64,000 nt of DNA from Closterium sp. NIES-65 (lineage: Eukaryota; Streptophyta; Zygnematophyceae; Desmidiales; Closteriaceae), in NCBI GenBank assembly GCA_948144175.1, contig CANXME010000398.1:237501-301500 (forward strand), read 5' to 3'. The notes under the pieces were generated by a model that did no database searches, had not been told where the DNA came from, and saw nothing but the letters and a program-made list of their open reading frames with translations. The translations under genes and the position numbers were made by a program. Positions 1 through 6,600 of this stretch are shown in pieces; positions within the stretch are counted from its first letter, which is position 1; each line of letters opens with the position of its first letter.

Positions 1-659
1 CCATGCACATGGGTGCCATAGCCCCTCGTATCCCTGCTACACCCTTCCCCATAACCCTACCCTGCCTCCCTTCTGCCCTCCATTCTTTTTCCCCCCCCTC
101 CAGCAAACCAGATCCACCCCGGCAGCACGCACCTGTCGATCTGCATGAGCCCCCTGCCATGCGTGAGCGCCAGGCTTGGTTGGTTTTTGAGACGTCTCAA
201 AAGCCAGGCTTGGATGGTTCTCCCCTGCTCAACCCTGGAAGCTGAACTCATTTGCCATATCCTCCCTCCCCCACCCCTCACCCCTCTCCCTTTCCCACAG
301 CCACCACAGTACGGCACGCACCTGTCGATCTGCACGCGCCCCCTGCTGTGCGTGAGCGCCAGCCACCCTGATTCTCCTTCTCCCCAGCCAATCTATATAT
401 AGCCATGCAGACTCGACTGAACCCACTTGCCCGGATCCTCTTCCTTTCCCCATTTCCCCCCCTCCTTCCCCCATTCCCCCCTCAAGCCCCCCCCCACCAT
501 GGCACGCACGCACCTGTCGATCTGCACGAGCCCCCTGCCATGGGTGAGCGCCAGGGCTTGGTCCTCCTCCCCACCCCAGGCCACGGTAACCGTGTTAACG
601 CATCCCTCTCGCCCATATCCTCTCACTTCCCCCACGAAAACCACCCTGGCAGCACGCAC
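1..659 (-). repeat. TPP2 intron 13 (partial) with three echoes of the exon 13 3' edge
   Basis: The last 40-60 bp of exon 13, encoding [12 protein letters not shown], and its GT donor recur in degenerate form at 505-562, 312-362 and 122-177. Each copy keeps the CAG/GTGCGTG junction or a close version of it. The spacing is about 190 bp, so this looks like a decayed tandem duplication of an exon-intron junction. No other TPP2 exon was recognised here; the next one must lie outside the window. Confidence 0.85.
185..202. repeat. 18-bp perfect palindrome TTTTGAGACGTCTCAAAA
   Basis: The string equals its own reverse complement. It lies 8 bp from the edge of an exon 13 echo (122-177) in TPP2 intron 13. 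An identical copy lies at 3236-3253 and close variants at 7481-7498, 48073-48090 and 51903-51920. Confidence 0.9.
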
Positions 660-3600: not shown

Positions 3601-6600
3601 AGACAAACATGATGGCATCTCATTCGAATACACCTCTTCCTCCTCCCACCTATCACTTCCCACCTACCAACTTGCCCCACCCAGCAGCAAGCCCACCCGA
3701 CCCGACCACCTGTGGAGTGGAACGTCTTAAAACTGTTGAAAAAACAAATTCTTAAAGCAGTACAAGGTCCCCCACCTGCTGAGCGACGATGAGTGCGCGG
3801 ATGAGCCCCTGAGGCGTTTCCATGGACCCCAGGCGCGTGTCCCCCACCTTGCACGACACCAGCTGCGCACCTGGCGCAATGCCGTTCAGCTCTGGTGCCT
3901 GACGGGAAGGAGAGGGGAAGGGAAGGGAAGGGAAAGGAAGGGAAGGAGAGGGGAGGGTAGAGAGGGGAACACACAGACGTGTGAGCGCCCACCTTGCACG
4001 ACACCTATGCCGTTCAGCTCTGGCGCCTGCAGGAGAATGGGGGGGGTGGGGGGAGAGATGGAGGAAGGTTTAGAGTGGGATGGAGAGTGATAGAGAGAGA
4101 TGGAGAGGGATGGAGAGGGGAGGAAGAGGGAATGGGGAAGAAGGAGAGGGAAGGAGAGGGAACCAGGGTTTAGCGTAGAGAGGAGAGGCGGATAGAGGAG
4201 CGGGAGGACAGAAGAATGAGCAAGCCCGTGATGAGGGAAGAGAGGGGCGATAGAAGAAGGATTGAACCAGGGGGGAAGAAAAGAAGGCGTCCGAATATTG
4301 GGAAGGTATAAAGGGAGAGAGTGTTGGGAGAAAGAGGAAGTGGGAGGGAGGGAGGGCGGGAGGGAGGGAGGGAGGGAGGGAGGGAGGGAGGGAGGGAGGG
4401 AGGGAGGGAGGGAGGGAGGGAGGGAGGGAGGGAGGGAGGGAGGGAGGGAGGGAGGGATTTGAACAGAAAAGAAGCTCTTCGGAAAGTAGCGAAGTAGAGT
4501 AGAGTGAGGAACTGCATAAGCGTACGGCCTTCAATTAGTGTCCAACAGTCATCCACCCAACCCCACCACTCGCCACACACTCACCCTACCCAACCCCTCC
4601 CAGCCCAACCCAACCCAATACCACTCTCCCACACCATCCATACGTCCCCAACCCAACCTTACACCACCTCCCCATCCCGCCCACTTCACGAGTCCCAAAA
4701 AAGGTTAAAAAAAAAAAAAAAAAAAAAAAAACTGAGATAGAAACCAAGGGATCACCTCAGGGTGGCAAGCAGCCACAATCCCTGCCACGTGGGTGCCGTG
4801 TGCACTGGCTTCTGTGACTATAGAGAGCACCGCGCCCTCATCGTATATGTTCACACCGAACCCACACGCGTCCATCGGGCTGAATGTTGCATGCTGCCGC
4901 TCCAACCTGGGAGAGCGGGTGCGAAGAGATGAGATGAGGGCGTGTAAGGACCAAAAAACAGTCGTCGACTAGAAAATCGGTCCGGTATATGCGGTCTTAA
5001 GACTTGTAAAAAAGGCACTCACCTGTAGTTGGTCATAGGGGTGAAATCAGCCAAGCGCCCAGGCACAACAGCAGGCTTAGCCTCCCCTTCTTCCTCCCCA
5101 GACGCCCCAGATGCACCACCAGCAGCACCAGCAGCAGCAGCAGTACCAGCAACACCAGGAGCAGCATCAGCAGCATGAGCGATGTCAACATAGAGGTCGG
5201 TGGTATCAAGAGCTGCACGCCAAGTGGTGCCATCGTGCCACACCACGGCGTCTATCAGCGGGCCCATATCCTCGTATGACTGACAGGTAGGAAGAATGGG
5301 AGGCGAGGGGGGACGTAGAGAGGGGAGAAGGAAGATTGGTGAGAAGCCCTCACACGTACGCACACCACTGTGTCTATCAGCGACAGCAGCCCCATATCCT
5401 CGTATGACTGAGAGGCTGGAGGAGAGAGGCGAGGGGGGAAGGAGCAAGGGGTGGAGAGGGGTGCGGAGGAAGATGGGAGTCAGCACACGCACACAGAGCA
5501 GCAGCAATCAGTTTGAGTGCACACACACGGAGACCCTCACAGACGCACCGCTGCATCTATCAGCGGCCCCATGTCCTCGTAAGGAAAGGACTGAGACCGC
5601 AGGAGAGGGGTGAGGGGGGCGAGTGGCAAGGATTGCAGGGAGAGAGGGGCGGAGGAAGATTGGGAATCAACACCACGCAAGTAGAGCAGCAGCGGCAGCG
5701 CATTTGAGAGCACACGCACAGAAACACCCACTTCCATACAACTTCACCTGTTAATCCCCCAACCCCAACTCCGCCCAACCCCGAACCCCCCCCACCCTGC
5801 CTCTCTCCCTCCCCCACTTTGCCTCCCCCACTCACGCCCTGCATGAATTGCAACAAATCTAATCGCACCTGAAGCTCCCTATTCTAACGTTGGAGGAACC
5901 TCCATAACAGACCCTCGCCTCCATAACAGACCCTCGCCTCCATAACAGACCCTCGCCTCCACACCCCCACGCCCCACCCCCAACCAACCCCACGCCCTGC
6001 CGCCCCCCCCCCCCCCCCCCACACGCCCTGCCTCCCCCACTCACGTCCTGCATTGACTGCAGCAGGTCCAATCGCGCCTGAAGTTCCTCCTTCTCCTTCT
6101 TGCCTGCTTCGTCCTTGGCCTTGGATGGCTTCTGCTGTGCGTGTGCGTGTTCGTGTCACGCAAGCACACACAAGCGTCCAGCGAGCAAACGGTCAAGGAC
6201 AAGCGCACGCACAGATCGAGAGTGGGAAGGCAGGAGAGGAAAGGGCGGTGGGAGGGGGGGGGCAGTGAGCAGCAGCAGACTCTCGTCTTGCCTCACTTCG
6301 AACGCATCTTGACTCAACATTCCACCTAGTTTTTCCCGAAATAGATTCCCCCACCCACCCCTTCTACCCCCCCCCCCCCCCCATTCCAAACTGTCAACTA
6401 AACTTTCTGAGCCTCTTGTACCCTCCACCTCACGTTCCTCCCATACTCACTCCCACAAACAAGCACCCTTCAATTCCCCCAAAATCATAATTCTATCTAC
6501 AATCTTCCTTCACCTTTTCCACTAGCCTCCTTCCATCCTCGTCTCTCTCTTGGTTTCTTTCGGAGGCCCGCTCGGCCGCTTGTCGGCTCGCACACCTGCT

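Follow-up and report, generated by a model that had tools for sequence, protein, structure and literature searches.

The TPP2 Gene and the Partial Exon Copies in Its Introns

The DNA considered here is a stretch of 64,000 nucleotides (the window) on contig CANXME010000398.1 of the Closterium sp. NIES-65 assembly, which comprises 874 Mb in 2400 contigs. The first 10.2 kb of the window are occupied by the gene for tripeptidyl-peptidase 2 (TPP2) on the minus strand, and the introns of this gene contain partial copies of the edges of the neighboring exons, often together with the adjoining splice site. Thirteen exons lie inside the window; all in-window junctions are GT-AG, and the exons join into a single open frame of 756 amino acids, with exon 13 ending 2 nt later (660-790) than in the first model, as indicated by P0001 and the printed alignment. 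Residues 240-756 share 97% identity with the TPP2 prediction from Closterium sp. Naga37s-1 and, over 55% of their length, 82% identity with that from NIES-54, and the protein can be aligned to the solved TPP2 structure 3lxu. The Naga37s-1 prediction joins the true exons, includes none of the copies, and has no extra exon piece where they lie. A second TPP2 locus, sought for dating the copies, was not found in this genome at E 0.001 (all 15 matches fall on the contig of the window), and a Pfam scan of one unspliced TPP2 piece gave no match.

When 60-bp exon edges were used as queries against the adjoining introns, with 40 dinucleotide shuffles as the control, nine of 25 edges matched the intron on their own side better than every shuffle (z 7 to 27), namely donors 6, 10, 12, and 13, and acceptors 7, 9, 11, 12, and 13. 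The intron on the wrong side of the exon exceeded all shuffles for four of 24 edges (z 3.6 to 5.8), and the opposite strand did so for three of 25 (z 3.0 to 5.7). Because exons 5 and 10 are only 81 and 84 nt long, the query reaches the other edge, which accounts for the wrong-side matches of their acceptors; the remaining two, in introns 3 and 6, belong to donor 4, which scored 17.0 against at most 14.0 in the shuffles, and to acceptor 6, which scored 13.0 against 12.0.

Altogether, 19 alignments represent 18 partial copies in introns 6, 8, 10, 11, 12, and 13 (Table 1), two adjoining pieces being counted as one copy of exon 9. The acceptor-side copies lie upstream of the true exon and the donor-side copies lie downstream. 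The first-pass annotation of this sequence had listed about 18 copies in the same six introns, with the same polarity and with up to five copies in a row, and all of this is borne out, the run of five being located at 1729-2310. The junction is present in 14 of the 19 alignments and AG or GT is retained in 13 of these 14, where, for the three donor 13 copies, the GT is read off the printed family alignment once the exon end has been moved by 2 nt. In the inner donor-side copy of exon 12, the homology extends ~102 nt into the exon. Two further donor-side copies (E 5e-6 and 0.002) were detected in the part of TPP2 beyond the window (stretch L009).

In the NIES-54 prediction (P0002), an apparent frame-shifted head of exon 12 is seen by eye just before the true exon 12. 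Judging from this predicted protein, such copies seem to be present in another strain, NIES-54, and to mislead gene prediction there.

Table 1. Partial exon copies, minisatellite, and exons of TPP2 in the window (positions are those of the window)
Feature	Position	Strand	Basis
Donor-side copy of exon 6, intron 6	5821..5885	-	52/65 identical, GT kept
Outer acceptor-side copy of exon 7, intron 6	5546..5581	-	31/36 identical
Inner acceptor-side copy of exon 7, intron 6	5355..5420	-	52/66 identical, AG kept
Acceptor-side copy of exon 9, intron 8 (aligned in two pieces)	3988..4037	-	27/31 + 18/18 identical, AG kept
Donor-side copy of exon 10, intron 10	3170..3228	-	54/59 identical, GT kept
Outer acceptor-side copy of exon 11, intron 10	2878..2921	-	35/44 identical
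Inner acceptor-side copy of exon 11, intron 10	2736..2798	-	58/69 identical, AG kept
Five-copy acceptor-side array of exon 12, intron 11	1729..2310 (2263-2310, 2133-2191, 1982-2048, 1845-1924, 1729-1781)	-	Edge alignments
Inner donor-side copy of exon 12, intron 12	1313..1375	-	55/63 identical, GT kept
Outer donor-side copy of exon 12, intron 12	1054..1127	-	53/74 identical, GT kept
Acceptor-side copy of exon 13, intron 12 (limited to the exon part)	928..958	-	28/31 identical
Three-copy donor-side array of exon 13, intron 13	121..567 (500-567, 314-362, 121-180)	-	65/68, 46/49, 57/61 identical, GT kept
28-bp minisatellite, ~28 units, intron 5	6659..7454	-	Unit resembles exon 5, 22/28 in printed alignment
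Exon 1	9448..10177	-	Open frame, donor GT
Exon 2	8962..9040	-	Gene model
Exon 3	8548..8621	-	Gene model
Exon 4	7927..8036	-	Gene model
Exon 5 (likely source of the intron 5 minisatellite)	7535..7615	-	Gene model
Exon 6	6045..6131	-	Gene model
Exon 7	5023..5279	-	Gene model
Exon 8	4756..4906	-	Gene model
Exon 9	3776..3898	-	Gene model
Exon 10	3293..3376	-	Gene model
Exon 11	2471..2658	-	Gene model
Exon 12	1460..1634	-	Gene model
Exon 13 (end shifted by 2 nt)	660..790	-	Gene model, P0001, printed alignment

Exon-Edge Copies at Other Loci

Twenty further stretches of the genome were taken, comprising 15 test loci and five near-duplicate partners. The 15 loci belong to four families (three cullin, four adaptin, three PEPC, and five HSP90 loci); they are a subset of the family matches found, some are paralogous, and they are neither random nor independent. 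Their exon edges come from Pfam matches picked as main exons, followed by a simple GT/AG refinement, and matches that resembled copies, plus some unclear ones (in L024, L031, and L032), were excluded as exons. This left 78 exons, with splice sites placed at 136 of the 156 edges. In the cullin profile search itself, partial matches upstream of an exon share the same profile start and follow one another in steps of ~150-190 bp, and HSP90 behaves alike. Phosphorylase profile matches in the genome show a similar pattern, seen in the match positions only.

At a score of at least 20, edge copies were found in the introns next to the exon on the expected side in 36 of 152 edge tests, versus none of 72 on the wrong side, none of 152 on the opposite strand, and two of 57 for queries from the exon middle. 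The wrong-side tests were limited to exons of at least 200 nt; when only these exons are counted, the comparison is 15/72 on their own side with 0/72 on the wrong side. Under a weaker criterion (a score that beats 20 shuffles), the corresponding values are 49/152, 4/72, 12/152, and 5/57. In other words, the excess of exon-edge copies and their polarity, first noticed in TPP2, are found beyond this gene as well, under shuffle controls.

At the stricter score, at least one edge copy is present in eight of the 15 loci. None was found in the other seven, for example, in the short-intron PEPC (L033 and L034) and HSP90 (L036, L037, and L041) loci, and L026 has none despite a 2-kb intron. A total of 89 copies lie at 39 of the 136 placed edges, and 72 of them reach the junction. 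If TPP2 and the 15 loci are taken together (16 genes), exon-derived copies occur in 23 of 74 introns, a count that excludes TPP2 introns 2 and 3, where the matches are intron-only. The median intron length is 748 bp with copies versus 286 bp without them, and 15.1% of the intron bases are recognizably exon-derived. Copy number increases with intron length (Spearman 0.69), and longer introns also offer more room. The copies represent a concrete, apparently neutral route of intron growth.

Arrangement of the Arrays

The copies stand head to tail beside their source exon, on the same strand and in the same order, and recur about every 150 bp. Over 42 arrays, the first copy lies at a median of 147.5 bp from the true junction (within 109-176 bp in 28 of them), and the median of all 76 steps in the sample is 151.5 bp; in the acceptor array of TPP2 exon 12, the four junction-bearing copies are separated by steps of 132-141 bp. 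Both the extent of this copying and the narrow range of unit lengths are unusual.

The first-pass annotation had stated that only junctions are copied, and this does not hold, because in part of the steps the repeated unit takes in intron sequence: for 10 of 14 TPP2 steps, the intron stretches between the copies show homology that exceeds the shuffles (reached by 0-2 of 200 shuffles), including the four steps tested in the exon 12 acceptor array (0 to 2 of 200). At the other loci this is true of 17 of 57 steps (reached by 0 of 60 shuffles, with ~1 step expected), and in the L031 array two units, as judged by eye, are nearly identical throughout, intron part as well as exon part. The inner ends of the copies are shared in several arrays: five of the seven copies of L022 exon 0 end 76-79 nt inside the exon, and all three copies of L031 exon 0 end at 56 nt, whereas in some other arrays the ends vary. 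Shared ends are expected if one founding duplication was followed by growth of the array. A copy of a whole exon was found in none of 45 arrays, the longest copy covering at most 0.69 of its exon (with queries of at most 300 nt, which are uninformative for longer exons), and there was no whole-exon cluster among the local repeats.

It is likely, in our opinion, that the copies are neutral remnants of small tandem duplications, each straddling a splice junction. Small tandem duplications, often of ~110-180 bp, would arise in this genome, and when one of them crosses a single splice junction, the copy adjoining the exon body would stay in use and the other would be left in the intron, as half an exon with one splice site. 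Under exon definition, the recognition of an exon requires its partner splice site. A half exon without this partner would go unrecognized, so that the event would be harmless and could persist; it is in this way that we infer the silence of the copies in splicing. The array would then change by whole units via slippage or unequal exchange, some short units would turn into minisatellites, and the copies would decay neutrally. Among the causes that the first-pass annotation had proposed, tandem duplication by slippage (or by unequal exchange) fits as the molecular step, and we see neither reverse splicing nor patching by template switching as required, though neither was put to an excluding test.

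Possible Junction Preference and Geometry

The polarity of the copies follows from the duplication of a segment that straddles a junction: the working copy is the one joined to the exon body, so the spare is left upstream at an acceptor and downstream at a donor, and a wrong-side copy would need a duplication spanning the whole exon. A junction-seeking mechanism is needless for this polarity, and a preference for junctions is nevertheless possible. If harmless 150-bp duplications fell at random, the share straddling one junction would be 0.43 with the present intron lengths and 0.58 with those of copy-free introns (0.31 to 0.69 when the unit length is varied from 100 to 200 bp). Among the local repeats at 90% identity, 8 of 13 straddle a junction, which agrees with both values (p 0.143 and 0.515, respectively). 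The earlier proposal of slippage anchored at the junction is not established, for this reason and because the intron is co-copied in part of the steps.

The main rival is a junction-targeted process, acting through reverse splicing, template switching on nascent RNA or R-loops, or exon-edge chromatin, that duplicates junctions preferentially. The following observations speak for it and weigh against our explanation: (i) at 80% identity, the junction share is 16/23 (one-sided p 0.009 against 0.43 and 0.181 against 0.58); (ii) minisatellites of 19, 28, and 40 bp account for three of the five clusters confined to introns at 90% identity, and without them the share is 8/10 (one-sided p 0.020 and 0.137), with 16/21 left by the same removal at 80%; and (iii) only 3 of 33 intron windows lying within 150 bp of a true junction are repeated, in a test weakened by low complexity, with matches increasing with depth in the intron. 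A further observation weighs against our explanation: in 4 of 14 TPP2 steps and in 40 of 57 steps elsewhere, the homology of the intron part does not exceed that of shuffles, which may be put down to the decay of pyrimidine-rich intron sequence. Most copies also reach the junction, as described above for TPP2 and the other loci, though the queries themselves were edges. Against it, all of these shares fit geometry when copy-free intron lengths are used (p 0.137 to 0.515), and intron sequence is co-copied in 10 of 14 TPP2 steps and 17 of 57 elsewhere. The flanks also carry local repeats (10 clusters in 86.9 kb at 90% identity), though they may contain unmatched exons. Moreover, with one partner held by selection, copies of exon edges are more readily seen than those confined to the intron. 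Taking both sides together, we regard junction targeting as unlikely.

Probable Neutral Evolution of the Copies

The copies behave as neutral sequence. The opposing view, that they are alternative half-exons or regulatory splice sites under selection, might be suggested by their mismatches to the exons, which amount to 9.3, 7.0, and 26.7% at codon positions 1, 2, and 3 (109 copies). Such a third-position excess suggests coding constraint, which we considered and rejected on two grounds. In a polarized count at the 23 edges with at least two copies, changes in the true exon number 6/434, 4/438, and 53/446 at the three positions, whereas those private to the closest copy number 14/434, 11/438, and 26/446. 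The second ground is the substitution rate between near-identical duplicates of a locus (five pairs, four with copies; columns in poorly aligned stretches were dropped). The exon parts of the copies differ at 40 of 5320 sites (0.75%), their intron parts at 15 of 1634, and other intron sequence at 98 of 12,072 (0.81%), versus 2 of 4368 (0.05%) at positions 1 and 2 and 12 of 2184 at position 3 of the true exons. The exon parts of the copies are indistinguishable from the intron rate (p 0.71) and far from that of exon positions 1 and 2 (p 1e-8). The reading frame is not kept either: indels that are not a multiple of 3 make up 81 of 93 in the exon parts of the copies and 89 of 101 in the intron parts. 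It is because the substitution rate equals that of introns and the indels ignore the frame that we call the copies neutral.

Three observations point in the other direction. Splice dinucleotides are retained in 68 of the 72 junction-reaching copies; the mismatch at AG/GT is 5/136, compared with 351/4292 at codon positions 1 and 2; and, among the changes found in the closest copy alone, position 3 is mildly overrepresented (26/446 versus 25/872, p 0.010). Either weak constraint or an alignment effect may underlie the retained dinucleotides and the low AG/GT mismatch. Given the neutral rate, the loss of frame, and the absence of the TPP2 copies from the Naga37s-1 prediction, selected half-exons or splice sites are very improbable. 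An assembly or chance artifact, conceivable for young copies in a draft assembly, can hardly be credited, because the copies mismatch their exons at roughly one third position in four, align through in the duplicate loci, and have an apparent counterpart, by eye, in the NIES-54 prediction.

Since one copy is held by selection, arrays may record older states of an exon. The copy of TPP2 exon 10 (3180-3228) reads V, as does the Naga37s-1 exon, at a site where the true exon (3289-3337) reads L, and it probably preserves the older state.

Changes in Unit Number and Minisatellites

The five duplicate pairs differ by 23 indels of at least 12 bp, and 16 of the 23 are tandem by score. Differences in unit number were seen in one pair only, the cullin loci L022/L023, where gain and loss are indistinguishable. 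One, a 56-bp indel, consists of two 28-bp units in an array whose start is the donor of a cullin exon; every unit contains the final few bases of the exon plus the donor again. The other, within the same intron, is one additional exon-derived unit of 132 bp. Both are visible by eye in the alignment.

Short units of this kind may link the copies with minisatellites. The unit of the 28-bp minisatellite in TPP2 intron 5 matches exon 5 with a score of 16 (maximum of 200 shuffles, 13), and none of the other 12 exons exceeds its shuffles; the donor 5 edge test was no better than shuffles (15.0 versus 15.5). A 40-bp repeat unit in L022 also resembles the neighboring exon by eye. As both units resemble an adjacent exon, exon-edge copies may seed minisatellites.

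Simple repeats and minisatellites, for example, with units of 5, 19, and 40 bp, vary in length between the near-identical loci of the pairs L022/L023, L024/L025, L027/L028, and L038/L039.

One could go further and suppose that the lengthening of Closterium introns is driven by ongoing duplication in near-nucleosome units (~150 bp) with a preference for exon-intron boundaries, arising, for example, from nucleosome placement or transcription-replication conflict at exon edges; these edges would then be a main source of new intron sequence genome-wide. We find this doubtful.

Relationship with Known Systems

Intronic minisatellites and other tandem repeats form arrays that differ by whole units; the Closterium unit differs from them in that it contains an exon edge, in many cases with a splice site. 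In tandem exon duplication, which gives rise to mutually exclusive exons, whole exons with both splice sites are repeated beside their source, whereas the Closterium copies are partial, without coding constraint or a kept frame. A Drosophila study reportedly deals, by its title, with novel intron positions arising through intron sliding or tandem duplication; the Closterium case concerns intron length.

The closest parallel is the potato RdRp gene, where, according to the paper concerned (PMC4974935), a tandem genomic duplication across an intron-exon boundary created an additional piece of exon along with a new intron; an 83-bp tandem duplication inside the first intron is also mentioned there. 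The duplication crosses a boundary in the same way, but the Closterium copies are apparently silent, are arrayed, and recur in many genes. The same paper describes the Rogers model, in which introns are gained via duplication of an AGGT-containing exon segment (PMC4974935). Here, too, tandem duplication supplies copies of splice sites, whereas in Closterium existing introns lengthen and no new intron was seen. Among the titles and abstract openings listed in searches of the open-licence PMC literature, we found no report of exon-edge arrays in introns.

The first-pass annotation saw in the copies possible raw material for alternative splice sites. They place intact-looking splice sites near the real ones, a difficulty for spliceosomes as well as for gene predictors, and how splicing ignores good decoy sites becomes a directly testable question.

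Other Features of the Window

An 18-bp palindrome, TTTTGAG-N4-CTCAAAA, recurs in the window (185, 3236, and 7481) and in L022-L041. There are 27 occurrences in 253 kb and none after mononucleotide shuffling, and the centers are mostly self-complementary (ACGT in 11, TCGA in 9, and GCGC in 4 of the 27). The palindrome is also seen by eye inside some of the indels between duplicate loci; it looks like a dispersed small element. Further along the window, at ~14070-21290, long plus-strand open frames lie between repeated ends that start near TGTCAAACATTATATATGTTG, and by eye this region is a candidate copia-like retrotransposon.
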